In this document: one piece after another, positions 2,698 through 16,839 of the stretch
Layout: the number at the start of each line of letters is the position of its first letter
How positions within the stretch are numbered: position 1 is the first letter of the stretch
Program-made: the position numbers and the translations under genes
From: Nitrospirota bacterium
GTDB taxonomy: Bacteria; Nitrospirota; Nitrospiria; Nitrospirales; UBA8639
Direction of reading: 5' to 3'
DNA: 17,219 nucleotides
NCBI GenBank assembly: GCA_029879555.1
Contig: JAOUQB010000017.1
Location: forward strand, 1-17,219
Notes under the pieces: generated by a model
Told to the model about the DNA's origin: nothing
Databases searched by the model: none
What the model saw: the letters and a program-made list of their open reading frames with translations, nothing else

Positions 2698-4488
2698 TTA
2701 CACCGAAAGAGATACTGTCGGCGCTAAGGTTTCCCACTTCACGCGCTTGAGGAAGTCGGCTTTGGCGCGTGAGCGTGATAGTTTTCCCGATGAAGTTCGT
2801 GGCAGGGTTCTGGGTGGAATGAGCTCAATATAGCAGGGAATGGAGAGTTCCTTTTGAATTCGTGTCCCTAAACGACCAATCAGGTCTTCTCGCTTTTGCG
2901 AATTGGTTTCGCGGCATTGGATGACCATAATGGCCACTTCATCCCCATCAGGACCGCAGACGGAAAAGGCGGAAGAGTCACTGGGTCGCACTTCTGGTTG
3001 CTGTTCCGCGAGATACTCTAAATCCTGAGGCCAAATATTGCGACCATTGATGATAATCATATCTTTGGATCGCCCAATAATGACCAGATTTCCCTTTATC
3101 CAATACCCAATGTCTCCTGTATTGAGCCATCCATCTTCAGAAAGAACCTCTTGCGTTAAGATAGAGTCATTAAAGTATCCCGCCATAATGCTCGCGCCGC
3201 GAACAAAGATGGTTCCACTTTGCCGATCATCAAGGGCCATCCCTTGGTCATTACGTATTTCCACTTCATAGCCAGGAAGCGGCATCCCACAGTTGACAAA
3301 TTTGCTCATGCGGGTATTGCCGTCTGCAGGGAAATTTTCCTTGAAGGGGCTGGCGGTTCTGTTATTGGAAAGGGCATCCGCATCGACCAGGTCCACTTCA
3401 ATGCCAGAATGGAGAGGGGCGAAGCTGATAGCCAATGAGCATTCAGCCATGCCATAGCATGCCAAAAAAGCCTTCGAGTTAAATCCCGAAGGACTGAGGG
3501 CCTTGGCAAAGCGTCCCAAACTGTCCGCCCGAACCGTTTCCGCTCCCACCCCCGCAATCCGCCACGCCCGCAGGTCGTAGGCTTCATTTGAGGAGTCTTC
3601 ACGTAAGCGGCGAACGCAGAGCTCATACCCAAAGGATGGGCTAAACGAAATTGTTGCACGACTATGAGTCATCAGCTTGAGCCATTGGCGGGGGCGCATG
3701 GCGAAATCTCTTGTGCTGAGATAATCTACCGAAAGTTGTGAGGCCATAGGACCAAGGACAAACCCCACTAAACCCATATCATGATAAAAGGGCAGCCAAG
3801 AAACGCATCGATCTCCTGATTGCACTTGCAGCCCATGTTGGATAATGCCGGCCAAATTGGTCATAACCGCAGACTGGGTGACTTCAACGCCCCTTGGCCA
3901 TCGAGTACTGCCCGAGGTGTATTGAATATAAGCCAGTTCATGGCGGGTTAGGGGCTGTATGGGGTCCTGACTTTCCTTTAGCGAAGCAAAAGCTTCAGGC
4001 CCGCCAATGAGGCGAATTTTCAGGTCAGTGGCCGCCTCTTCTAAAAATGGCACAAAGCCTTCAGGGGCCATGGCAATCGAAGCCTGGCAATTTTCAAGCA
4101 ATCGGCGCAATTGGCTTACATAGGCTTGATGACCTCCCAAATGAATCGAAATTGGGAGGGGCACAGGTATCAGGCCGGCATATTGGCAGGCGAAGAAAAA
4201 CCGAAGGAAATCAGGCGTGGTGTCTGCAACTAAAGCCACCCTGGATCCACGAGTTAATTCAAGGCTATTCAGTCTTTTGGCTAAATTCTTAGATTGGGTT
4301 TGTAGCTCGACATAGGAGAGAACATGGGTTAAATGGCCTCGCCCTGAATAAAAGTTGGTTCCTGTTTTTCCAGAAGCCGCATAATCCAGAGCCTCAGAGA
4401 GGGTCGAAAAATCACCTGGACGAAGTGGAAGTGCGGGATCTGTCGGAGTGGCAATCATGTTTGAATTCGGTGTGCTTAAAAGAGTCAT
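2698..4488 (-). CDS. Fatty acyl-AMP ligase / acyl-ACP synthetase
   Basis: This is an adenylate-forming enzyme of the FAAL type, about 596 aa from the chosen start. It should activate a free fatty acid as acyl-AMP and load it on the ACP two genes downstream, feeding Spt. Motifs are YTSGST (about 190-195), the FAAL-characteristic SWLPFYHDMGL (about 230-240), YGMAECSLAISFAP, TGDIGYW, the hinge GRSKDMIIINGRNIWP, and a C-terminal RTSSGK whose Lys is about 569. The phosphate loop is unusual: after YTSGST it reads RWPRG where GxPKG is typical. The frame also has a GTG at 4503; I prefer the ATG at 4488 because GAGG stands 3 bases upstream, although that is close. It is the first gene after a sigma-54-like site and probably leads the cerR-ACP-spt operon. 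Confidence 0.85.
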   Translation of the reverse strand: MTLLSTPNSNMIATPTDPALPLRPGDFSTLSEALDYAASGKTGTNFYSGRGHLTHVLSYVELQTQSKNLAKRLNSLELTRGSRVALVADTTPDFLRFFFACQYAGLIPVPLPISIHLGGHQAYVSQLRRLLENCQASIAMAPEGFVPFLEEAATDLKIRLIGGPEAFASLKESQDPIQPLTRHELAYIQYTSGSTRWPRGVEVTQSAVMTNLAGIIQHGLQVQSGDRCVSWLPFYHDMGLVGFVLGPMASQLSVDYLSTRDFAMRPRQWLKLMTHSRATISFSPSFGYELCVRRLREDSSNEAYDLRAWRIAGVGAETVRADSLGRFAKALSPSGFNSKAFLACYGMAECSLAISFAPLHSGIEVDLVDADALSNNRTASPFKENFPADGNTRMSKFVNCGMPLPGYEVEIRNDQGMALDDRQSGTIFVRGASIMAGYFNDSILTQEVLSEDGWLNTGDIGYWIKGNLVIIGRSKDMIIINGRNIWPQDLEYLAEQQPEVRPSDSSAFSVCGPDGDEVAIMVIQCRETNSQKREDLIGRLGTRIQKELSIPCYIELIPPRTLPRTSSGKLSRSRAKADFLKRVKWETLAPTVSLSV

Positions 4489-4534
4489 AAACCTCGTACC
4501 CACGCGTCATGGCATTAAAAGTCAATAATGATAT

Positions 4535-4703: not shown

Positions 4704-5135
4704 TTACGCTGACCAAAGTTTTTGAAGATGGGACAATATTTCGTGTCTGACTTTTGGGGGTATTTCATTAGGGTTTTTCAGGATCGGCGGACCTGGCCAT
4801 CCTTGGTCAAGAAATTGCTGTTGAGCAAATGTACGAGGGGTGTCATATCGGGGAAAGACATGAAAATGTACCTCAGGATCGACCATCATGAGCATGAGAT
4901 AATTGATCTTGTTGTAGGCAAATGCACGTGAGAGGCTCGTCTCCATCTCACGAAGTACGTTTGGTAGTTCCCCAAATGCTTCAGAGCTAATCCTGGAGAA
5001 GGCTGTGGCGTCCTCTCGACAAATTAATACCAAAGAGCCAAGAGTCACTTGTTGAGGACGTAACACCACAACCCAGTGGTGAAATTCTTTGACGCACGTG
5101 TCGGGGAACCCAAATTTTTGCATCGTGGCGTTCAT
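4704..5135 (-). CDS. HIT-family protein with variant His triad
   Basis: This 143-aa protein has the overall pattern of the histidine-triad (HIT) nucleotide hydrolase/transferase family. The signature segment is MMVDPEVHFHVFPRY around residues 83-97. Family members normally show HxHxHxx at this point; aligned on the PRY end, the first His is Glu88, while His90 and the nucleophile-position His92 remain. The rest (HHWVVVLRPQQVTLGSLVLICR, residues 19-40) fits the HIT fold core. Enzymes of this family act on nucleoside phosphoramidates, dinucleoside polyphosphates or adenylylated substrates; processing an acyl-AMP by-product of the adjacent FAAL is conceivable but unproven. About 200 AT-rich bases with a candidate promoter separate it from the FAAL gene. 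ATGs at 5135 and 5123 are both possible starts. Confidence 0.75.
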   Translation of the reverse strand: MNATMQKFGFPDTCVKEFHHWVVVLRPQQVTLGSLVLICREDATAFSRISSEAFGELPNVLREMETSLSRAFAYNKINYLMLMMVDPEVHFHVFPRYDTPRTFAQQQFLDQGWPGPPILKNPNEIPPKVRHEILSHLQKLWSA

Positions 5136-5483: not shown

Positions 5484-6218
5484 ATGTTAACGAAGCAGTG
5501 GTATCGAGAAAAATACCATCTTGACCGCATGGTGTTTCGAGATTTGATGTGGGCGTACGTGTCGTATCCCAGCATTCAGGTTTATGCCATATTATTGGTG
5601 AGTAGCATAGTTATGGCCTTGGTGATTTATCCCAATGCCTCCGTTTCTCCTATTCGTTTAATGGGCAGTATTTTTGCGACATTGCTGGCGTATCCATTTG
5701 TGGAATATACGGTCCATCGATTTATTCTTCATGGACGATATTTGTATCGTTCTCCCTGGACGGCGGCGCTGTGGAAGCGGATTCATTACGACCACCATCA
5801 AGACCCCAATGACTTACGTGTCCTGTTTGGATCAGTCTCAACGACCCTCCCCACCATTGTGGTGGCCACATTCCCAATCGGGATGAGTCTGGCGGGCTGG
5901 GCAGGGGTTCCGCTGTCTTTTGCGACGGGTTTGGCCTGTTTCATGGTGTACGAATTATGTCATTGCATGCAGCATCTTCGTGTGAATCCCAAGAATCAAT
6001 TTTTACGAAAAATTAAGCGGCATCATTTATTGCATCATTTCCACAATGAACAAGGGAATTTTGGGATCACCAGTCTGCTGTGTGACCGCCTATTTGGGAG
6101 TTTGTATTCCAGTTCAGAAAAAATTCCTGTCAGTCCCACCGTCTCAAATTTGGGCTACCAGGAAGAGGAGCGGGTGCGGTATCCCTGGGTTGCGCAATTA
6201 TCTGAACACAAGTTGTAG
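5484..6218 (+). CDS. Fatty acid hydroxylase/sterol desaturase superfamily membrane di-iron enzyme
   Basis: This is an integral membrane oxygenase of 244 aa. The histidine boxes expected for the superfamily are present: HRFILH (78-83), HYDHH (101-105), HCMQH (160-164) and HHLLHHFH (180-187). Together they can ligate a di-iron centre facing the cytoplasm. Hydrophobic stretches near 32-50, 58-72, 115-138 and 140-158 are likely membrane spans. Members hydroxylate fatty acyl chains, sphingoid bases, sterols or carotenoids. Next to bCerS, the most economical role is hydroxylation of the ceramide (acyl C2 or the long-chain base), but the position cannot be read from sequence. The ATG at 5484 has no strong ribosome-binding site; an in-frame ATG at 5529 is the alternative. 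Confidence 0.82.
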   Translation: MLTKQWYREKYHLDRMVFRDLMWAYVSYPSIQVYAILLVSSIVMALVIYPNASVSPIRLMGSIFATLLAYPFVEYTVHRFILHGRYLYRSPWTAALWKRIHYDHHQDPNDLRVLFGSVSTTLPTIVVATFPIGMSLAGWAGVPLSFATGLACFMVYELCHCMQHLRVNPKNQFLRKIKRHHLLHHFHNEQGNFGITSLLCDRLFGSLYSSSEKIPVSPTVSNLGYQEEERVRYPWVAQLSEHKL

Positions 6219-6319: not shown

Positions 6320-7444
6320 TTGATTCGGATTGAGCCGGTCAAAACCCGGGTTGGCCTCAAACAGTTCGTTCAATTTCCCGCCCACGTCTATCGGACGGAT
6401 TCCGCCTGGGTGCCGCCTCTTGAGTTAGAGCGCCTTCATTTTTTTTCGTCAAAGAACCCGTATTTCGAGCATGCTCGCTGGCAGGGTTGGATCGCGTATC
6501 GTGGGGCCGAACCGGTTGGACGGATCAGTGCACAAATTGATGAATTGCATCTTGCGCGGTATACGCCTCGAACAGGATTTTTTGGATCGCTCGAAGCGGA
6601 AGATTCGGTAGATGTTTTTCAAGCGCTGTTCAAAACAGCGGAAGCGTGGCTCCGAGCGGAAGGGATGGTGACCGCACAGGGGCCGTTCAATTTATCGATC
6701 AATCAAGAATGTGGGTTGCTGGTCGAGGGGTATGACAATCCCCCAATGGTGATGATGGGGCATGCTCGACCGTATTATCCCCAGCACATTGAAGCTAACG
6801 GATATCGTAAGGCCCAGGATATGCTGGCGTATCGGCTCGGGATTCATTTTCCACTTCCTTCGGGCGTGACGCGGTTTTTGCAGAAAGCCAAGGATTCCGT
6901 GCGGATTCGTCCGTTACGCAGAAAACATTTGCGGGAAGAATTGGAAATTATTAAGGAAATTTATGAAGAGGCGTGGTCGGAGAATTGGGGATTTTTGCCG
7001 TTCACCGAAGCCGAATTTGCAGAACTTGGTCAGCACATGAAGTTGTTAGTTGAGGACGATTTTGTGCAAATTGCAGAAATTGATGGGACGCCTTGTGCGA
7101 TGCTTGTGGCCTTTCCCAACTTGCATGAAGTCATTCATGATCTTGGCGGGCGTCTCTGGCCTTGGGGGTGGCTCAAAATTCTGTGGGGGTTGAAGGTGTC
7201 GTATCCCAAAACGGGGCGTGTCGTCCTTATGGGGGTTCGGCAGCGTTTTCAATCCAGTCCGATGGGAGCCGTGATGGCATATGGAATGATTGAAGCGGTG
7301 AGACAGGCAGGCTTGCGAAAACATATTGAACAGGTTGAACTCTCTTGGATTCTGGAAGACAACAAGCGGATGCGACATGTTCTTGAATCATTGGGAGCCG
7401 AGCCTTATAAAACCTACCGACTCTATGAGAAATCACTCAATTGA
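6320..7444 (+). CDS. bcerS: Bacterial ceramide synthase-type acyltransferase (double GNAT, YghO-like)
   Basis: This is a 374-aa soluble protein with the layout of the bCerS/YghO family: two GNAT-like folds. The N-terminal half carries VYRTDSAWVPPL (about 23-34) and QGPFNLSINQECGLLVEGYD, and the C-terminal half carries ELSWILEDNKRM before a terminal LGAEPYKTYRLYEK, both hallmarks I recall for this family. bCerS transfers an acyl group to the amine of sphinganine to give dihydroceramide and is unrelated to eukaryotic ceramide synthases. The gene sits 101 bases after the hydroxylase and across the divergent region from the spt operon. The start is a TTG at 6320; I see no in-frame ATG before the conserved beginning IRIEPVKTR. 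The specific function is inferred from family memory and cluster context. Confidence 0.82.
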   Translation: MIRIEPVKTRVGLKQFVQFPAHVYRTDSAWVPPLELERLHFFSSKNPYFEHARWQGWIAYRGAEPVGRISAQIDELHLARYTPRTGFFGSLEAEDSVDVFQALFKTAEAWLRAEGMVTAQGPFNLSINQECGLLVEGYDNPPMVMMGHARPYYPQHIEANGYRKAQDMLAYRLGIHFPLPSGVTRFLQKAKDSVRIRPLRRKHLREELEIIKEIYEEAWSENWGFLPFTEAEFAELGQHMKLLVEDDFVQIAEIDGTPCAMLVAFPNLHEVIHDLGGRLWPWGWLKILWGLKVSYPKTGRVVLMGVRQRFQSSPMGAVMAYGMIEAVRQAGLRKHIEQVELSWILEDNKRMRHVLESLGAEPYKTYRLYEKSLN

Positions 7445-7459
7445 TTTCTGCCAACACCC

Positions 7460-8308
7460 ATGGATGACAGTATGCCGGATACTGAACCACGTCCAGTTAC
7501 TGCGTTGGTCTTAGCTGGTGCGCGACCAGGTCGCGACGCCGTCGCTGAGGCGGCTGGTGTGCCAATAAAAGTATTGGCCATGGTGGGAGGAACGCCCATG
7601 GTGGCCAGTGTTTTGAGGATTCTCGAATCCTCATCCTTAGTGGCGAAACGCGTTTTGTGTGGACCTTCCTGGAAGGTTATCCAAGAGCAGGCCTTTTTAC
7701 AGGAACTCGTAGAAAAGAAAGAAATTGGGTGGCTCCCTCCACAACAAGGTCCAAGCTTGAGCGTGAAAGGGTTTTTGGAACAATTTCCAGAGGATCTGCC
7801 TCTTCTGGTGACGACCGCTGATCATGCGTTGTTGACGGTGGAGATGGTGGACTATTTTCTCAGAGAGGCTGGACGAGCACAGGTTGATGTTGCTGTTGCG
7901 TTGGTCCCCTATACCGTGGTGGCAGAGGCCTATCCTCAATCCAAGCGTACGGTGATCGGGTTTCGAGGTGGAGGGTATTGTGGGTGCAATTTATTTCTTC
8001 TTGGGAGTCCAAAAGCCCAGCGATTGGTAGAATTTTGGACACAGGTTGAGCGTGAGCGTAAGCGCCCGCTTCGATTGATTCGTCGCCTCGGATGGGTCAT
8101 GCTTCTTCGCTATATTTTGGGTTGGCTGTCGCTGTCTGATGCGCTGCTCGAACTGAGTCAACGCATGGGGATCTCCATTCAAGCCATCATGTTGCCGTTC
8201 CCTGAGGCGGCCATTGATGTCGATACGCCTGAAGACCTGGTTTTAGTGAAAGAGATTATTGAGAAACGAGAAATGACCCTGGAGAAGGGGAAGGTCGCAG
8301 GATCCTAA
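7460..8308 (+). CDS. MobA-like nucleotidyltransferase (NTP transferase domain)
   Basis: This 282-aa protein has a GT-A-like nucleotidyltransferase core. The N-terminal nucleotide loop is ALVLAGARPGRD (about 15-26), a metal-binding Asp lies in VTTADHALLT (Asp121), and DVDTPEDL (253-260) is the usual C-terminal motif of NTP transferases. It should couple an NTP to a phosphorylated small molecule, or recognise one, but the substrate cannot be read. The loop LAGARPGRD lacks the usual GGxSxRMG pattern, so it is a divergent member. It starts 15 bases after bCerS and is probably co-transcribed, suggesting a part in the head group of the sphingolipid. An ATG at 7472 is an alternative start. Confidence 0.72.
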   Translation: MDDSMPDTEPRPVTALVLAGARPGRDAVAEAAGVPIKVLAMVGGTPMVASVLRILESSSLVAKRVLCGPSWKVIQEQAFLQELVEKKEIGWLPPQQGPSLSVKGFLEQFPEDLPLLVTTADHALLTVEMVDYFLREAGRAQVDVAVALVPYTVVAEAYPQSKRTVIGFRGGGYCGCNLFLLGSPKAQRLVEFWTQVERERKRPLRLIRRLGWVMLLRYILGWLSLSDALLELSQRMGISIQAIMLPFPEAAIDVDTPEDLVLVKEIIEKREMTLEKGKVAGS

Positions 8309-8373: not shown

Positions 8374-9108
8374 CTACGGTTTTGGGATATGCGGTTTGAG
8401 TCGTGTCTCAGCATAGTGGAGGTCTTCGGGGTTGTCGATCTCTGCCCAGGTTAATCCGTTAATCGATACTGTGGAGACATGGCCTTGTGTGGCAAGTTCG
8501 TCGATGAGAGATAAGTACCATTGTTTGAGGGATTCGGGTTGTCGAATACGCTGTTCGATGGTTGAACAAAACATTCGAGGGCCTTCGTCTTGGAAACGAA
8601 TCATGCCAATGGATTCACCGTTGACTTTTTCGAGTGCTAATTTTTTTCCAATCCTGAGAAGTTGGGTGCCTCGCACAATCACCTTCATGTCATCCGCATC
8701 ATACTGCGGTTTTTCATCGGTCACGAGGGTGATGGGGGCCGCTGGGGCTTGTAATACACGTTTAAGAATGGCTGTTTCAAACACGGTATCGCCATTGAGC
8801 AAGATGAAATCTTCCGTCATTTCATTTCTCGCTGTCCAACAACTGATAAGATTATCCGCCAATGCATAAAAGGGATTGTACAACGTGTGAATGGCATGAC
8901 GGCTGCTATGGGTGGCTAAGACCTGTTCCACGGTGGATGCCTCAAAGCCGACCACCACATGAATGGGGCGAATTCCTAACTTGATCAATTCATCGATTTG
9001 CCATTCCAAGATAGAGCGTCCATGGAGCGGAATGGTGCATTTAGGGCGGTCTTGAGTGAGCGGGAGTAACCGTTTGCCCTGTCCCGCACTGAGGATGATG
9101 GCTTTCAT
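8374..9108 (-). CDS. LicC-like sugar/alcohol-phosphate cytidylyltransferase
   Basis: This is a soluble nucleotidyltransferase of 244 aa. The N-terminal signature LSAGQGKRLLPLTQDRPKC (6-24) binds the NTP, YNPFYALADNLISCW (77-91) resembles the LicC/inositol-1-phosphate cytidylyltransferase region, LNGD (Asp107) should hold a metal ion, and WAEIDNPEDL (221-230) closes the active site. Relatives convert CTP plus phosphocholine or inositol-1-phosphate to the CDP-alcohol. With a CDP-alcohol phosphatidyltransferase nearby, it may supply the activated head group. It lies on the minus strand between two plus-strand blocks and is divergent from lptF, with 57 bases between the starts. The nucleotide and substrate are not certain; a GT-A sugar-1-phosphate enzyme is possible. 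Confidence 0.78.
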   Translation of the reverse strand: MKAIILSAGQGKRLLPLTQDRPKCTIPLHGRSILEWQIDELIKLGIRPIHVVVGFEASTVEQVLATHSSRHAIHTLYNPFYALADNLISCWTARNEMTEDFILLNGDTVFETAILKRVLQAPAAPITLVTDEKPQYDADDMKVIVRGTQLLRIGKKLALEKVNGESIGMIRFQDEGPRMFCSTIEQRIRQPESLKQWYLSLIDELATQGHVSTVSINGLTWAEIDNPEDLHYAETRLKPHIPKP

Positions 9109-9165: not shown

Positions 9166-10233
9166 ATGTTAGATCGCTATCTCATTCGGGAAGTGCTTAA
9201 GCCTTCGATGTTGGTGTGCGGGCTGTTTATCGTCCTCTTTGCCGGATACAGTTGGATCGTCTTTTTAGCCCAAGCGGTGGATGCCCTTCTTTCCACCAGC
9301 ATGCTCTTGAAATTAATTGTGTTAAAGGTTGCCATTGCGCTAGAGGTCTTACTCCCTGTCTCGTTGTACTTTGGAGTGATTCTTGGTTTAGGGCGGTTGT
9401 ATGCGGATTCGGAGATGAAGGCGTTGTTGGCGGCTGGAGTGAGTCCTTATCGTGTGATGGGAGCGATTTTCCTACTGTCCGCCTGTGTGGCGATACTCGT
9501 CGGTGTCTTTTCATTGTATCTTCGCCCATTGGCCTATCAAGAGAGCTACCGTGTCAAAGCTCAAGCCGAAGCTGGATTGGGAATCAGTCATTTGGAGCCA
9601 GGACATTTTTATGATCGACGGGATGGTTCCCTGGTCCTTTTTGCTGAAGAAGTCGATCAACCGCAGCGCGAGTTAAAGCGGGTATTTGTGCAAAGTGAAA
9701 AAGGGGAAAAGTTGCGAATCATTTCTGCCAAAAAAGCTGGTGAACAATTTCATCCTGAAAGCGGGATGGCGATTCCGGTGGTTTTTGATGGGTTCGAATA
9801 CAAATTCACGCGAAATGGCCGTATGACCCATATGTCGCATTTTGAAAAATTATTCATTTATCCTGAAGAAGCCATTCAAGATTACCGACGGAAGGCCGTT
9901 CCAACCCTCGAGTTGGTGGAATCTGAAACGAAGCAGTATATTGCCGAATTTCAGTGGCGTTGTACAGCGCCCTTCTCGACTATTCTCTTGGGCTTGTTAG
10001 GTATTCCGTTGAGTCGATCATCCCCAAGAAAAGGCAAATATGCCAAAATATTCACCGCGACGATCCTCTTTGCGCTGTACTATTTTGTTGGATTGATGGT
10101 CAAAGCTTTGGTCGAGCAAGGAACGCTGCCGATTTTTCCCGGTCTGTGGTGGATAGTCATTGGATTAGGGATACTCGTGAGTGCTTTAGCCCTGATCCCT
10201 AAATTTTCATCGCGTCAACTTTTAGGCGCATGA
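9166..10233 (+). CDS. lptF: LptF-type permease (YjgP/YjgQ family)
   Basis: This 355-aa inner-membrane protein has the LptF/LptG plan: three N-terminal membrane spans (about 14-36, 47-76 and 96-118), a periplasmic beta-jellyroll domain (about 120-255) and three C-terminal spans (about 265-350). Family marks are RYLIREVLKP at the start, LPVSLYFGVILGLGRLYADS, the cytoplasmic coupling-helix segment EMKALLAAGVSP (83-94), and PLSRSSPRKGKYA. LptF and LptG with the ATPase LptB extract lipopolysaccharide from the inner membrane and pass it to a periplasmic bridge. No lptB, lptC or lptA is seen here. The gene sits among lipid head-group genes, so it may be the core Lpt permease or one specialised for sphingolipids. 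Confidence 0.85.
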   Translation: MLDRYLIREVLKPSMLVCGLFIVLFAGYSWIVFLAQAVDALLSTSMLLKLIVLKVAIALEVLLPVSLYFGVILGLGRLYADSEMKALLAAGVSPYRVMGAIFLLSACVAILVGVFSLYLRPLAYQESYRVKAQAEAGLGISHLEPGHFYDRRDGSLVLFAEEVDQPQRELKRVFVQSEKGEKLRIISAKKAGEQFHPESGMAIPVVFDGFEYKFTRNGRMTHMSHFEKLFIYPEEAIQDYRRKAVPTLELVESETKQYIAEFQWRCTAPFSTILLGLLGIPLSRSSPRKGKYAKIFTATILFALYYFVGLMVKALVEQGTLPIFPGLWWIVIGLGILVSALALIPKFSSRQLLGA

Positions 10234-10266
10234 ACGCTCAAGCTCAAGTCAAACACTCCATGGGCG

Positions 10267-10291
10267 TGGGCAGGTTTTGGTTTCCCGCCCA
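10267..10291 (+). terminator. Imperfect hairpin between lptF and lptG
   Basis: TGGGCAGG and CCCGCCCA can pair (7 of 8) around a 9-base loop. A T-rich stretch (ACTTTTCTT) begins only about 6 bases later. It could be an attenuator between lptF and lptG, but the spacing to the T-run is poor. Low confidence. Confidence 0.25.
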
Positions 10292-10334
10292 GAGAGACTT
10301 TTCTTAAAAGCCCAACTTGCCTGATCGTTTCACG

Positions 10335-11411
10335 ATGTCTATTCCTATTCTTTATCGGTACCTCTGGGGAAGTGTTATCAGAGGGTATTTGCCGGTCATC
10401 GCTATCCTGTTAGCCCTATTTAGTTTATTTGCGTTTGTTGAAGAGGTCGACGAAGTGGGCAATGGACGTTATACCTTTTGGGCGGCAGGGGAATACGTTC
10501 TCCTGACCCTGCCAGAACGGTTTGTGGTGTTATCACCGTTTATCGCGTTACTGGGTAGCATTATGGCCTTGGGGGGGTTGGCGAATGGTCGGGAGCTTTT
10601 GGCGATGCAGGCTGCAGGTTTCTCTCATTACCAAATAGCTTGGGCCGTCATGCAAGTGGGAATCGTCTTTATGGTGACGGTGGCCTGCTTGGAAGAATAT
10701 GTCACCCCCGTTTTGGATCAGAATGCGCATATTTCACGGTCCTTAGCGCTGTCCAACTCCCATGTCTATCAGGGGAAACAAGGGCTATGGTTTCAAGAAG
10801 GCAACCGCTATATTCGGATTAAAACGTTGAAGTATGGTGAAATTCCTCAAAAAATAGATATTTTTGAATTCAATGCCAATGGCGAAATGACAGCGTACCT
10901 GTATGTGGAAGAAGCCGACGTTCAGAATCCTGGTACGTGGGTGTTGAAAAATATTCAGAAGAAAGTCATTGATGGTTTTCGTGTCACTGAAGAGGTGGTA
11001 CCGAGTCTCGTGTGGGATTCCCCTTTGAATCGAGAAGAAATGCGACTATTAACCCTTCCGGCTTCCTCTCTCGCCCCATCGGATCTTTTTCGTTATATTG
11101 AAATCCTTCAACGGAAAAAACAGAATGTTCTGAGATATGAGTTGGCCTTTTGGGAAAAAATATTTATGCCGTTAAAGACGGGATTGATGATTCTGCTGGC
11201 GTTGCCGTTTGCCTTTGGCCCCTTGAGAAGTAGCTCAGCGGGCAAGCGAATTATGCTAGGGGGGTTGGTTGGGATTGGCTATTATCTGACAACAGAAATA
11301 TTGGAAAATTTAGGGATCTTATTAGGCGCCTCAGCCTTCCTCACCACCATCATCCCCTTTCTCGGCATTGTTCTGGCTACGGCCATTCTATGGTGGGTGT
11401 ACTTTTCATGA
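10335..11411 (+). CDS. lptG: LptG-type permease (YjgP/YjgQ family)
   Basis: This is the partner permease of LptF, 358 aa from the ATG at 10335. It begins ILYRYLWGSVIRGYLPV, shows three N-terminal membrane spans, the coupling segment NGRELLAMQAAGFS, a periplasmic domain with GLWFQEGNRYIRI, and the C-terminal block RYELAFWEKIFMPL followed by spans ending WWVYFS. This pattern fits LptG rather than LptF. A TTG 18 bases upstream in frame is a less likely start. It is about 100 bases after lptF and 49 bases before the CDP-alcohol phosphatidyltransferase start, so co-transcription is plausible. Function: release of a lipid from the inner membrane for export. Whether the cargo is lipopolysaccharide or a sphingolipid is not shown by the sequence. 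Confidence 0.83.
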   Translation: MSIPILYRYLWGSVIRGYLPVIAILLALFSLFAFVEEVDEVGNGRYTFWAAGEYVLLTLPERFVVLSPFIALLGSIMALGGLANGRELLAMQAAGFSHYQIAWAVMQVGIVFMVTVACLEEYVTPVLDQNAHISRSLALSNSHVYQGKQGLWFQEGNRYIRIKTLKYGEIPQKIDIFEFNANGEMTAYLYVEEADVQNPGTWVLKNIQKKVIDGFRVTEEVVPSLVWDSPLNREEMRLLTLPASSLAPSDLFRYIEILQRKKQNVLRYELAFWEKIFMPLKTGLMILLALPFAFGPLRSSSAGKRIMLGGLVGIGYYLTTEILENLGILLGASAFLTTIIPFLGIVLATAILWWVYFS

Positions 11412-11460: not shown

Positions 11461-12672
11461 ATGAAGCGCATGTATTGGTCTCTATGTCGGGAGTCGGACA
11501 TTCGATTGTGGGGGTTGACCTCTCGCGAACGGTTGGAGCGAATGCTGAATCGGATTGGCCCTCATGCGGGGTGGGCTGATGTTCAAAATGTGCCTGCCGG
11601 AAGTTCCGTCCTCATCACCCGTGGAGATTTTATTTTCGATGAGCGGGTGTTACGCAGTTTAACGAAGGAAGAGAACGTGATTTTAGAGATGGGTCAAGGC
11701 CAAGCCCTTGTCCCTGTTGCCGCGCATGTGGAGGCCTCCGTGGCTCCGGCAGTTATGCAAAGTATGGAAGCGGGGCAGTTTGCCGAAATTCCCAATCTAA
11801 GAAGAGTGACATTAGAAGATCTGTCCGGCTCCTTTTCGAATGAATTGCGAAAGGCCGATCATCCCTACGTGTTGCCCATACGTGAAGACAATCGAGTCGC
11901 CTTGGAACAACATTTGTTTTCAGGATCGTATAAAGGGGTGACGGATTTCATCACCAAATTCTGGTGGCCGGCACCGGCACAACGGGTCACTCGCTGGTGT
12001 ACCTTATCAGGGATTTCCCCTAACCAGGTGACAACGCTGAGTTTGGCTCTGGTGATTCTGGCGGGAATTCTTTTTTGTTACGGGCATTTTGCTCTTGGTC
12101 TGGCTTTGGGGTGGGTCATGACTTTTCTCGATACGGTAGATGGAAAATTGGCCAGAGTCACGGTCACATCCACGAAATTGGGGAATGTTTTTGACCATGG
12201 CATTGATCTGATTCACCCACCGCTCTGGTACCTGGCGTGGGGAGTGGGCCTCCTTTCCTTTGCTCCATTGGTGTTGGAGGTGACCTTGGTGACCACCTGT
12301 TGGGTGATCGTGATCGGGTATATTTTTGGCCGAATCGTTGAGGGCATATTTCAGTGGTGGTTGGGAGGATTTGTCATTTTTTGTTGGAAGCCGTTTGACT
12401 CCTATTTTCGACTCATTACCGCACGGCGAAACCCGAATATGATTTTTCTTACGGGCAGTGTTCTGATTGGGCGACCAGATCTTGGTTTAGAAGCGGTGGC
12501 CATCTGGACTGTTGTTTCTACATTGATTTTGTTAGGAAGGCTAGCCATGGCTGGGCTGGAAAAGAGCACGACAGGGTCACTCACCTCCTGGTTGGCTGAG
12601 ATTGACCCAGTGAATGGGCGAGATGCTTTGGCTGTGCGATTGTTTACCAATCCTCCGGCCACCATTAAGTAA
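11461..12672 (+). CDS. CDP-alcohol phosphatidyltransferase with degenerate nucleotidyltransferase-like N-terminus
   Basis: This is a membrane enzyme of 403 aa from ATG 11461. The complete CDP-alcohol phosphatidyltransferase motif D-x2-DG-x2-AR-x8-G-x3-D-x3-D is present: Asp224, Asp227, Gly228, Ala231, Arg232, Gly241, Asp245, Asp249. It is followed by several membrane spans to the C-terminus. The first 150 residues are soluble and resemble the tail of a nucleotidyltransferase domain (RGDFIFDER at 54-62), as in the fused inositol-phosphate cytidylyltransferase/transferase enzymes, but no nucleotide-binding GxG loop is visible. It should transfer a phospho-alcohol between a CDP-linked donor and an acceptor alcohol. 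In this cluster either CDP-ceramide or a CDP-head group could be the donor. The frame is also open from 11368, overlapping lptG by 44 bases; I prefer 11461, with an AGGGA about 12 bases upstream. Confidence 0.85.
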   Translation: MKRMYWSLCRESDIRLWGLTSRERLERMLNRIGPHAGWADVQNVPAGSSVLITRGDFIFDERVLRSLTKEENVILEMGQGQALVPVAAHVEASVAPAVMQSMEAGQFAEIPNLRRVTLEDLSGSFSNELRKADHPYVLPIREDNRVALEQHLFSGSYKGVTDFITKFWWPAPAQRVTRWCTLSGISPNQVTTLSLALVILAGILFCYGHFALGLALGWVMTFLDTVDGKLARVTVTSTKLGNVFDHGIDLIHPPLWYLAWGVGLLSFAPLVLEVTLVTTCWVIVIGYIFGRIVEGIFQWWLGGFVIFCWKPFDSYFRLITARRNPNMIFLTGSVLIGRPDLGLEAVAIWTVVSTLILLGRLAMAGLEKSTTGSLTSWLAEIDPVNGRDALAVRLFTNPPATIK

Positions 12673-12825: not shown

Positions 12826-13791
12826 ATGCGTGTCGGACTTCTCCATAATCCGCTAAGTGGACGGAATAGACGCAATCCCGCTCTTATTCGGGACATCCTG
12901 GTTGGGTATCCAGAAGTTCTCTGCGCTGAGGTCAACACGCCTGCCGATATTCTCGAAGCCCTCAAGGGCTTTGCCCAACGGGACATTGATTGTGTGGCGA
13001 TCACAGGCGGTGATGGGACCATTCAGGCGGCGATGGGAGCCTTGTTTAATCATCGTCCGTTTTCCACTATGCCTTCGCTCGCGCTCCTGCCGGCAGGAAC
13101 AGCCAATTTGATGGCTGGCGATGTGGGCTTAGGACGGTTCGAGGAGAAAACGCTGGATCAGTTTTTCACCCAAGCCCGAACAGGGCACGCCAAACTCCTG
13201 TTTGAATCACGCCCGATTCTTCGTGTCTGTTTTCCGGAGGAACGAGCGCCGCTTCTTGGAATGTTTTTCGGGGCAGGTGCCATTTACCATGGCACGAAAA
13301 TGGGTCTGGAAACCAAGCAGTCGATCGGGCGTTTAGGGGAATGGGGTGCCGGGCTCATTATGCTAAAATTCTTAGTAGCGTTGGCCACGGGTTCTCGAAA
13401 GGGATTGAATCCGATCTCCGTACGTGTGACTGCGGGAGAGGCGGATCCTCAGGAACAGGAATATTTAGTGGTGATGGTGACCACGTTAGATCGCTTATTC
13501 TTAGGCATGAAGCCGTTTTGGAGTACGAATTCAGGGCCTTTACGTTTTACCAGCTTGCGTGTCCCCTATCGCCATTTATGGCGTGTGTTGCCAGCGGTGC
13601 TTCGTGGAGCATCGCATCCCTTGGCGACAAAAGACCATGGGTATGTGAGTGACAACCTCTCGGAAATACGCTTGAGTTTTGACAGCGGTTTTGTCTTAGA
13701 TGGAGAAGTCTATACCTCCTCTAAACCTCAAGAACCACTGGTCCTCGATTCCCCAGGGCAGCTGTCTTTTGTGCGATTACCAGCTGAATAA
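12826..13791 (+). CDS. LCB5/diacylglycerol kinase-family lipid kinase, candidate ceramide kinase
   Basis: This is a lipid kinase of 321 aa. The nucleotide-binding and catalytic pattern of the DAGK catalytic domain is clear: NPLSGRNRR (8-16), ITGGDGTI with GGDGT at 61-65, LLPAGTANLMAGDVGL (87-102) and the catalytic DGE at 292-294. The family includes diacylglycerol, sphingosine and ceramide kinases; bacterial ceramide kinase of Caulobacter belongs to it. In a ceramide cluster, ATP-dependent formation of ceramide-1-phosphate is the likeliest role, but diacylglycerol kinase activity cannot be excluded. The ATG at 12826 begins the conserved MRVGLLHNP. An upstream in-frame TTG at 12757 would add a hydrophobic tail read from the pyrimidine repeat, which I reject. 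The 3' end overlaps the start of the next gene. Confidence 0.84.
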   Translation: MRVGLLHNPLSGRNRRNPALIRDILVGYPEVLCAEVNTPADILEALKGFAQRDIDCVAITGGDGTIQAAMGALFNHRPFSTMPSLALLPAGTANLMAGDVGLGRFEEKTLDQFFTQARTGHAKLLFESRPILRVCFPEERAPLLGMFFGAGAIYHGTKMGLETKQSIGRLGEWGAGLIMLKFLVALATGSRKGLNPISVRVTAGEADPQEQEYLVVMVTTLDRLFLGMKPFWSTNSGPLRFTSLRVPYRHLWRVLPAVLRGASHPLATKDHGYVSDNLSEIRLSFDSGFVLDGEVYTSSKPQEPLVLDSPGQLSFVRLPAE

Positions 13792-14746
13792 TCATGCCTC
13801 TTTCCCAGGAAATGTTGAGGATCGTCGGTCAGCCAAGTCGTCAACCTATTCTTCTTCCATTCAGGCTGTAGGACAATTTCTCGCCAACAAATATGGTCAG
13901 GCCGTTCAGGGCATCCTCCTCTATGGCTCCTGCTTACGGGCGGGCACCGATCAAGATGGATTGGTGGATTGTTATGTGTTGGTGGATCGGTATTTCGCCG
14001 TGTATCCGTCAACGTGGCTGGCGCGTGTGAACCACTGGCTCCCCCCCAATGTGTTTTATGGAGAAGTTCCCGTCGACGGACGCACCGTGCGGATGAAATA
14101 TGCGGTCTTGTCGTTAGAGGATTTTGAGCGAAGTGTCACACCCAAGTGGTTTCATTCCTATTTTTGGGGCCGGTTCGCACAACCGACGGCCGTGATGGCC
14201 TGTCCGAGCCAAGCGATGACACAACGGATTATCGAAGGCTTGGGGAACGCGGTGGTCACCTTTTTGGGAAATGTGGTTCCCCAGATGCCGCCGAAATTTT
14301 CTGCAAAAGATGTCTGGAGTGTTGGCTTGGGACTTAGCTATGGCGCGGAATTACGTGCTGAATCGAAAGGGCGCGTCTCAACCTTGTGGGACAGTAATCA
14401 AGCCTATTATGAACAAGCTGCCCATGCCGCGGTTTCGGCGCATTTTCCCAAAGTGCAGGTCATTCAAAAAAATGGCATCACTTGGTATGAGATGGAACCT
14501 TCGAGATGGAGTGCCACCAGAAATCGAATGGCTTGGGCTGTTCGAAAAATTCAGGGAAAGTTCTTGTCGATTTTGCGCCTGATGAAGGCGGCGTTTACAT
14601 TCAGCGGGGGCGCCGATTATCTCATTTGGAAAATTGAGCGGCATTCCGGGGTAAAAGTAGAGTTGACTCCCGCCCAACGGAAGCATCCCATTTGGGCTGG
14701 CCTCACCACATTCTGGCGTCTCTATCGCCAAGGGGCCTTCCGATAA
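13769..14746 (+). CDS. Tam41-like nucleotidyltransferase, candidate CTP:lipid-phosphate cytidylyltransferase
   Basis: This protein of about 325 aa carries in order several landmarks that I recognise from mitochondrial Tam41 (CDP-diacylglycerol synthase). These are ILLYGSCLR with Gly53-Ser54 and the acidic DGLVD (Asp63, Asp67); MKYAVLSLEDF (about 109-119); SYFWGRFAQPTAVM (about 130-143), resembling the Tam41 GRLxKPV block; GLSYGAELRAE (188-198); NQAYYEQ (about 210-216); and a C-terminal LSILRLMKAAFTFSGGADYL similar to the Tam41 tail. Tam41 makes CDP-diacylglycerol from CTP and phosphatidate. Directly after a ceramide-kinase candidate and near a CDP-alcohol transferase, this copy could make CDP-ceramide. 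The TTG at 13769 overlaps the kinase by 23 bases; an ATG at 13700 would overlap by 92. I made the assignment from memory, without an alignment search. Confidence 0.68.
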   Translation: MCDYQLNNHASFPGNVEDRRSAKSSTYSSSIQAVGQFLANKYGQAVQGILLYGSCLRAGTDQDGLVDCYVLVDRYFAVYPSTWLARVNHWLPPNVFYGEVPVDGRTVRMKYAVLSLEDFERSVTPKWFHSYFWGRFAQPTAVMACPSQAMTQRIIEGLGNAVVTFLGNVVPQMPPKFSAKDVWSVGLGLSYGAELRAESKGRVSTLWDSNQAYYEQAAHAAVSAHFPKVQVIQKNGITWYEMEPSRWSATRNRMAWAVRKIQGKFLSILRLMKAAFTFSGGADYLIWKIERHSGVKVELTPAQRKHPIWAGLTTFWRLYRQGAFR

Positions 14747-14960
14747 ATGTCGGGTCTCGGCCCGACAACCGAGTGACTTTTGATTCGGCAAAAGTCACCA
14801 AAACCATTGACGCCCAGTCCGGCCAGATTGGAAAAAATGAACGGAAGGAGGGGGGCAGCCCAACTCGTGGAGCTCGTCCTGAGGCTTCTCGAAGGGCTCA
14901 GGCAAGGCCCGCCGAATGATAGGAGCGTTCATCCCCAAAGCCGGACAATAGGCGTCGGAC
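14615..14960 (+). repeat. Direct repeat, copy 1 (3' end of Tam41-like gene plus hairpin-rich tail)
   Basis: From GATTATCTCAT to about 14960 the sequence matches 16494-16839 in the same orientation. I counted roughly 17 differences in the first 165 bases (about 90% identity), and the offset is constant at 1879 bases until about one indel near the end. The first 132 bases encode the last 43 residues of the Tam41-like protein and its stop. The rest is non-coding with three inverted repeats, including CCTGAG/CTCAGG at 14878-14902. Confidence 0.85.
14748..14798 (+). terminator. Tandem hairpins immediately after the Tam41-like stop
   Basis: Hairpin 1 is TGTCGGG-TCTCGG-CCCGACA (14748-14767), a perfect 7-bp stem starting one base after the stop codon. 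Hairpin 2 is GTGACTTTTG-ATTCGG-CAAAAGTCAC (14773-14798), a perfect 10-bp stem. Neither is followed by a clear U-run, so intrinsic termination is uncertain; they may stabilise the transcript end. In the second repeat copy the stem of hairpin 2 is unchanged while its loop differs. Confidence 0.4.
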
Positions 14961-16481: not shown

Positions 16482-16625
16482 GAAGGCGGAGAAGATTATC
16501 TCATCTGGAACATTGAGCGGCATTCCGGGGTGAAAATTGAATTGACTCCTACACAACGGAAACATCCCATTTGGGCTGGCTTGACCACGTTTTGTCGTCT
16601 CTATCGCCAAGGGGCCTTCCGATAA
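16482..16625 (+). pseudogene. Truncated duplicate of the 3' end of the Tam41-like gene
   Basis: From about 16482 the plus strand encodes GGEDYLIWNIERHSGVKIEL and continues to a TAA at 16623-16625, matching the last 43 residues of the gene ending at 14746 with a handful of changes (Lys to Asn, Val to Ile, Ala to Thr, Trp to Cys). No start codon or upstream domain is present, so it is a fragment. It lies in the same frame as the preceding acyltransferase, with only that gene's TGA between them. Most differences preserve the protein, so it probably derives from a once-functional related gene rather than from a very recent copy. Confidence 0.72.
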
Positions 16626-16839
16626 ATGTCGAGTCTCGGCCCGACAGCCGAGTGACTTTTGTTTTGGCAAAAGTCACCAAAGCCATTGACGCCCAGTCCG
16701 GCCAGATTGCTAGGAATGAACGCAAGGAAGGGGGAGGACCAACTCGCGGAGCTGGCCCCTGAGGATTCTCGAAGGGCTCAGACAAGGTCCGCCGAACGAT
16801 AGGAGCGTTCATCCCAAAAGCCGAACAGCAGGCGTTGGG
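16494..16839 (+). repeat. Direct repeat, copy 2
   Basis: This is the second copy of the 14615-14960 repeat in the same orientation. It contains the gene remnant, the hairpin TGTCGAG/CCCGACA with one mismatch (16627-16646), the perfect 10-bp hairpin GTGACTTTTG/CAAAAGTCAC with a TTTTGG loop (16652-16677), and the GAGGATTCTCGAAGGGCTC segment. Upstream of 16494, similarity is limited to GAAGGCGG. Downstream of about 16839 the two copies diverge. Confidence 0.85.

Follow-up and report, generated by a model that had tools for sequence, protein, structure and literature searches.

The locus and its genes

The window, by which we mean the whole stretch of 17,219 nucleotides that was analysed, belongs to a fragmented metagenome-assembled genome (MAG; 3.22 Mb in 605 contigs, 91.8% complete) whose named relatives are Nitrospirales, which makes its source a relative of the nitrite-oxidising Nitrospira. 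It opens with five genes on the minus strand, encoding a serine palmitoyltransferase (SPT; 188-1396; 627.7 bits against the NF047599 equivalog, cut-off 500), an acyl carrier protein (ACP; 1399-1644; PF00550), a CerR-like NAD-dependent epimerase/reductase (1702-2646; assigned from PF01370 and position), a fatty acyl-AMP ligase of ceramide synthesis (2698-4503; NF006624, 779 bits) and a HIT-domain protein (4704-5135). On the plus strand follow a fatty acid hydroxylase family protein (5484-6218; PF04116, E 1.2e-21), a bCerS-like acyltransferase (6320-7444), which is without a Pfam or NCBIfam match and was recognised from its CC_1154 position and from its counterparts in similar loci, and a MobA/CofC-like NTP transferase (7460-8308; PF12804), counterpart of CC_1153 by type and gene order. 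A CpgD-like cytidylyltransferase of the LicC type, conserved across loci, lies on the minus strand (8374-9108; 1jyk at E 4e-11, 4jd0 at E 2e-6). Back on the plus strand are an LptF/LptG pair (9166-11411; PF03739 twice), probable phosphosphingolipid exporter permeases judging by the accessible text of PMC11324152, and a CpgA-like CDP-alcohol phosphotransferase (11461-12672) with a cytidylyltransferase-like N-terminal domain in the AF2299/IPCT-DIPPS architecture. These are followed by a CpgB-like ceramide kinase (12826-13791, plus strand) and a CpgC-like nucleotidyltransferase of predicted Tam41 fold (13794-14746, plus strand), for which we propose a CTP:ceramide-1-phosphate cytidylyltransferase function; an LpxL-like acyltransferase gene comes last. 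The GGDGT and DGE motifs from which the first-pass annotation had recognised a lipid kinase were located in the 321-residue product, with GGDG at residue 61 and DGE at residue 292, and the protein falls in the DAGK_cat family (PF00781, 55.5 bits, E 5.6e-15).

HIT proteins act on nucleotide phosphates, and for that reason the HIT protein may act on a CDP intermediate. Its gene recurs in many, not all, such loci from Nitrospirales and from Gamma-, Alpha- and Betaproteobacteria. In the window it is a counterpart of CC_1157 by position only, with a PF01230 score of 20.2 bits below the cut-off of 21.5, while the homologue in locus L047 lies above that cut-off; CC_1157 itself is called probably unrelated in the accessible text of PMC11324152. 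The hydroxylase gene is also present in the Nitrospirales loci that extend that far, and in L133, L136 and L138. It is a candidate for ceramide hydroxylation, which for Caulobacter is ascribed to a gene outside the locus in the text available (PMC11324152).

According to the accessible parts of the literature, Caulobacter makes the ceramide phosphoglycerates CPG and CPG2, the former requiring cpgB and cpgC and the latter cpgA and cpgD (PMC12275187, PMC11324152). Within the same limits, CpgB is described as a ceramide kinase that carries a GGDG motif (PMC10331486) and CpgD as the enzyme that forms CDP-glycerate (PMC12275187), both activities having been shown in Caulobacter; papers from 2025-26 give the mechanism of CpgC as unidentified (PMC12275187, PMC13228409). 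We read the window as a CPG/CPG2 locus. With Nitrospirota, a further phylum joins those known to carry this type of locus, and the full CPG gene set now reaches beyond the proteobacteria for which it is listed in the accessible text of PMC11324152. In the literature searched, which did not include the ceramide-gene survey cited by PMC10331486, no paper joined sphingolipid, serine palmitoyltransferase and Nitrospira; at least two papers mention sphingolipid, ceramide and Nitrospirota.

Reading frame, profile and fold of CpgC

All five strings that had been named as Tam41 landmarks in the gene after the kinase are present in a single frame: YGS (13922-13930), MKYAVLS (14093-14113), GRFAQP (14168-14185), GLSYGAELRA (14330-14359) and AAFTF (14588-14602). 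The start that fits the relatives is at 13794, but the frame from there ends after 25 codons; the conserved frame is read from 13793 and continues without a stop as far upstream as an ATG at 13700. P0001, a protein of another assembly with 98% identity, reads through intact from its first codon, and the one-base displacement in the first ~20 codons of cpgC (13794-13860) therefore likely stems from an assembly error or a recent frameshift. The catalytic core is encoded further downstream, and relatives also have intact copies, for example P0010 from Ca. Nitrospira neomarina; Ca. Nitrospira allomarina has a homologue as well. The 3’ end of cpgC, together with downstream DNA, is part of a direct repeat of ~355 bp (14606-14958 and 16485-16838, 87-89% identical) with one copy on either side of the LpxL-like gene; the second of these holds a remnant of ~48 cpgC codons. 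A similar remnant follows lpxL in locus L008, and weak ones were seen in G004 and G005.

The profile PF09139 (Tam41_Mmp37) gives 23.8 bits for the 348-aa ORF and 24.1 for the 317-aa stretch, which is only at its gathering cut-off of 24. It is the sole Pfam family that CpgC matches at E<=1, the CTP_transf_1 domain of CdsA (PF01148) being absent. Ten of the 13 aligned relatives match PF09139 at E<=1, and none of five proteobacterial CpgC homologues does at E<=0.1. Because a genome search at E<=0.001 found nothing in the window's own genome or in 14 control genomes, Caulobacter vibrioides among them, the profile alone is weak evidence. The predicted model settles the fold: built on 13 sequences (pLDDT 77.1), it has the two-domain fold of Tam41, with a match that spans model residues 16-270, and the solved structures closest to it are those of Tam41 enzymes (PDB 6ig2, 6ig4, 7ecd). 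By this predicted fold CpgC is Tam41-like, and fold, homologues and co-occurrence together settle that likeness. Sequence searches of the PDB reached 6ig2 only at E 0.047 with alignment A1; the single protein had no match up to E 1, and alignment A2 retrieved no Tam41 up to E 10.

Read by eye, the Tam41 residues K102 (of KYG), R127, P131, Y183 and R188 are conserved in 13/13 rows of alignment A2, in which the D of the Tam41 GD motif is E186 in CpgC. Aligned with 9xbd, CpgC retains only the second D of the nucleotidyltransferase (NTase) DxD pair (D59), the first being L or V, in a comparison that covers this pair. Tam41 itself retains one of the three acidic NTase residues, according to the accessible text of a review (PMC11646218). 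Invariant residues are about twice as dense in the C-terminal tail of CpgC (18 within residues 248-310) as in the core (23 within 30-194). The CpgC of locus L139, which is outside A2, does not follow this pattern in the tail at L263, D275 and W279.

Co-occurrence and gene neighbourhood

To separate SPT from its other relatives, which reach 372 bits, SPT was called at 500 bits. Among 59 Nitrospirales genomes, CpgC is found in 22 and SPT above 500 bits in 26, with both in 20 and neither in 31. The two with CpgC only are G001, at 66% completeness, and G018, with a split SPT; the six with SPT only are each at most 88% complete. When the 40 genomes with >=90% completeness and <=5% contamination are considered, 15 of the 16 that carry CpgC have SPT above 500 bits, and in the sixteenth (G018) SPT is split over two frames, cpgC being 12.5 kb away. 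An SPT above that score is absent from all 24 good genomes without CpgC. In a Pseudomonadota sample of unreported genome completeness, in which at most nine CpgC candidates per genome were scored, CpgC occurs in 15/249 and SPT in 23/249 genomes (14/248 and 22/248 without the centre genome G060, which was picked for its CpgC). All 15 CpgC genomes have SPT, and SPT without CpgC was seen in 8/249. As such, the co-occurrence of the Tam41-like gene with ceramide genes that had been anticipated is near-strict with respect to SPT in both groups, with the proviso that the Fisher tests ignore the relatedness of the genomes. CpgC very likely belongs to the CPG pathway.

CdsA, which had been raised as a point to check in the host lineage, is present in 53/59 Nitrospirales, 39/40 of the good ones and 20/22 of those with CpgC; the window's own MAG gave no PF01148 match. 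Replacement of CdsA by the Tam41-like enzyme was considered and rejected in view of those 53 genomes, the gap in the MAG being best put down to fragmentation. CpgC could still be an additional CDP-diacylglycerol synthase with phosphatidate as its substrate, supplying head-group synthesis in the locus, as its closest solved relatives are phosphatidate-using enzymes. However, CdsA is already there in most CpgC Nitrospirales, CpgC is almost confined to genomes with SPT, a restriction to sphingolipid makers that would be surprising for a general CDP-DAG synthase, and Caulobacter loses CPG without CC_1161, as the accessible text of PMC11324152 has it. We regard this phosphatidate reading as distinctly improbable.

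The kinase gene accompanies cpgC closely. It lies directly upstream in 16/16 homologous loci (14 from Nitrospirales or Nitrospirota and two from Gammaproteobacteria; L006 holds the end of cpgB only) and adjoins cpgC in 13/14 fetched Pseudomonadota loci; the fetched contig end of G176 (L141) shows no cpgB. On four plasmids the two genes are adjacent in L044, L045 and L047 and ~2 kb apart in L046, from a Diaphorobacter plasmid, where the neighbour of cpgC is cpgA. The Pseudomonas plasmid L044 carries a CPG locus, or a large part of one, in the vicinity of a sul1-bearing class 1 integron; L046 likewise carries one in the vicinity of a mercury-resistance operon. The pairing of a lipid kinase with a Tam41-fold enzyme in a ceramide locus is upheld.

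A proposed route from ceramide to CPG

In the scheme that we favour, ceramide would be made by Spt, ACP, CerR, the acyl-AMP ligase and the bCerS-like protein, and phosphorylated by CpgB (12826-13791) to ceramide-1-phosphate (C1P), from which CpgC (13794-14746) would form CDP-ceramide and pyrophosphate with CTP. Glycerate or phosphoglycerate would then displace CMP, leading to CPG, either through an enzyme that is not dedicated to the locus, the PgsA type being the class seen in 15/15 CpgC Pseudomonadota, or through CpgC itself; CpgD and CpgA would add a second phosphoglycerate from CDP-glycerate. We place this scheme as a whole moderately above even, and judge that CpgC is likely a CTP:ceramide-1-phosphate cytidylyltransferase. 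The fold, co-occurrence, gene order and module split rest on the present analysis, and we infer CDP-ceramide, its consumer, the reaction of CpgA and the Caulobacter-like action of the Nitrospirales genes. Counted against the scheme are the Pfam score at its cut-off, the five unmatched proteobacterial homologues, the failure to find a dedicated transferase, the L046 arrangement and the 13-sequence model.

The idea of a nucleotide-activated ceramide, central to the first-pass annotation, is not new. It has been in print since 2024, when CC_1161, the loss of which abolishes CPG, was proposed to make such a compound on the argument that joining C1P and glycerate needs activation, in the accessible text of PMC11324152. 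We equate CC_1161 with CCNA_01219 (CpgC) because both sit next to the kinase. That argument favours CDP-activation, and in chemical terms the most economical route leads from ceramide through C1P to CDP-ceramide; the outcome of this study is a sharpened, testable form of the published proposal. In the literature searched, neither biochemical evidence for CDP-ceramide nor the literal term was found.

Which enzyme would consume CDP-ceramide? The first-pass annotation suggested the CDP-alcohol transferase of the locus, which would form a ceramide-phospho-alcohol. CpgA precedes CpgC by two genes, phosphatidylinositol-phosphate synthases are among the profiles nearest to it, and L012, L013 and L014 have two CpgA copies around cpgB-cpgC. 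Furthermore, in a survey of 21 Nitrospirales (11 with and 10 without CpgC, hand-picked from the 59), the only transferase class limited to CpgC genomes looks like CpgA, a call made from bit scores and frame lengths and without alignment. Its fold, however, is closest to AF2299. CpgA and CpgD are both in the window; CpgA is missing from 6/15 CpgC Pseudomonadota, exactly where CpgD is missing, the other nine having both. Caulobacter still makes CPG without CC_1159/cpgA (PMC11324152), and its cpgA counterpart is placed with CpgD in the second addition (PMC12275187, PMC11324152), in the portions of these papers available. Genetics and co-occurrence thus point CpgA to the second addition, and its use of CDP-ceramide is very unlikely. 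The CofC/MobA-like gene is retained in L136 and L138 (G101, G303), genomes that show neither CpgA nor CpgD, and may for that reason serve the first, not the second, addition.

No dedicated transferase for CDP-ceramide was found in the 21 Nitrospirales or the 15 CpgC Pseudomonadota. The Nitrospirales with CpgC have 3-6 CDP-alcohol transferases (five in 9/11), and those without it 3-5 (four in 6/10). Additional in-locus copies do occur in L012, L013, L014, L046 (5794-7002) and L133 (15627-16799), as a CpgA paralogue immediately following cpgC or as a divergent type (~30% identity to CpgA) beside lptG, and these are candidates for the CPG-forming step there; as such copies are not general, a general dedicated transferase was rejected. 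By bit score, a PgsA-like match is present in all 15 CpgC Pseudomonadota and a PssA-like match in 13, G176 and G275 lacking it; the PssA type, suspected because glycerate resembles serine, is therefore the weaker suspect. It is possible, and we put it forward tentatively, that CDP-ceramide is a free liponucleotide used by a housekeeping CDP-alcohol transferase, most simply of the PgsA type with 3-phosphoglycerate replacing glycerol-3-phosphate and a phosphatase completing CPG. If so, bacterial phosphosphingolipid synthesis would draw on the machinery for glycerophospholipids and run alongside it as a second branch.

CpgC might instead be bifunctional, keeping the CDP-ceramide (or ceramide-phosphoryl-enzyme) that it forms bound and itself passing it on to glycerate, in which case free CDP-ceramide would not exist. 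The densely conserved tail would suit such a role, and four genomes (G101, G190, G303, G309; typed by NCBIfam) show one PgsA-type and one PssA-type transferase and no other. In addition, the accessible text of PMC12275187 and PMC11324152 names no genes besides cpgB and cpgC for the way from ceramide to CPG. An extra domain, however, is not seen in CpgC, and no Tam41 relative is known to perform a second transfer; we hold bifunctionality to be rather unlikely. Activation by CpgC of glycerate or phosphoglycerate, both soluble acids, instead of the lipid is conceivable for an NTase fold that also serves enzymes with small soluble substrates. This would leave the requirement for CpgB unexplained, the Tam41 match spans both domains, and CDP-glycerate is already produced by CpgD, which is dispensable for CPG in the accessible text of PMC12275187; we give this reading hardly any chance.

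Returning to the favoured scheme, the split between CpgB with CpgC and CpgA with CpgD shows where the missing transferase is to be sought. If CpgC does make CDP-ceramide, sphingolipids would gain a nucleotide-activated backbone, the counterpart of CDP-diacylglycerol, which to our knowledge is absent from textbook schemes. Compared with the Tam41/TAMM41 CDP-DAG synthases, CpgC has the fold in common at an identity of 16-17%, but a different neighbourhood and an invariant C-terminal tail of its own, and its substrate is presumably C1P where theirs is phosphatidate. AF2299 and IPCT-DIPPS handle inositol compounds, whereas the predicted substrates of CpgA are CDP-glycerate and a ceramide lipid, which it would link. 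With the CPG/CPG2 locus of Caulobacter crescentus (CC_1152-CC_1168), the window shares spt, acp, cerR, the acyl-AMP ligase, the bCerS-like and CC_1153-like genes, CpgD, LptF/LptG, CpgA, CpgB and CpgC. The connection between the two CpgC proteins runs through L139, the CpgC of which has mostly Phenylobacterium proteins as named best matches and is 30% identical to that of the window over 307 columns (profile comparison probability 100). L139 is ordered acyl-AMP ligase, cerR, acp, spt, cpgC, cpgB, cpgA, metallophosphoesterase, HIT, lptF, lptG, bCerS, CC_1153-like, with cpgD 340 bases past the fetched piece, an order that is Caulobacter's as far as the published text gives it. The window differs in its phylum, in the divergent arrangement of its ceramide and head-group genes, in having the hydroxylase inside the locus, and in being without a CC_1158-like metallophosphoesterase between lptG and cpgA, a gene that L010 does have (by Pfam) and of which L011, L012 and L014 have a look-alike.
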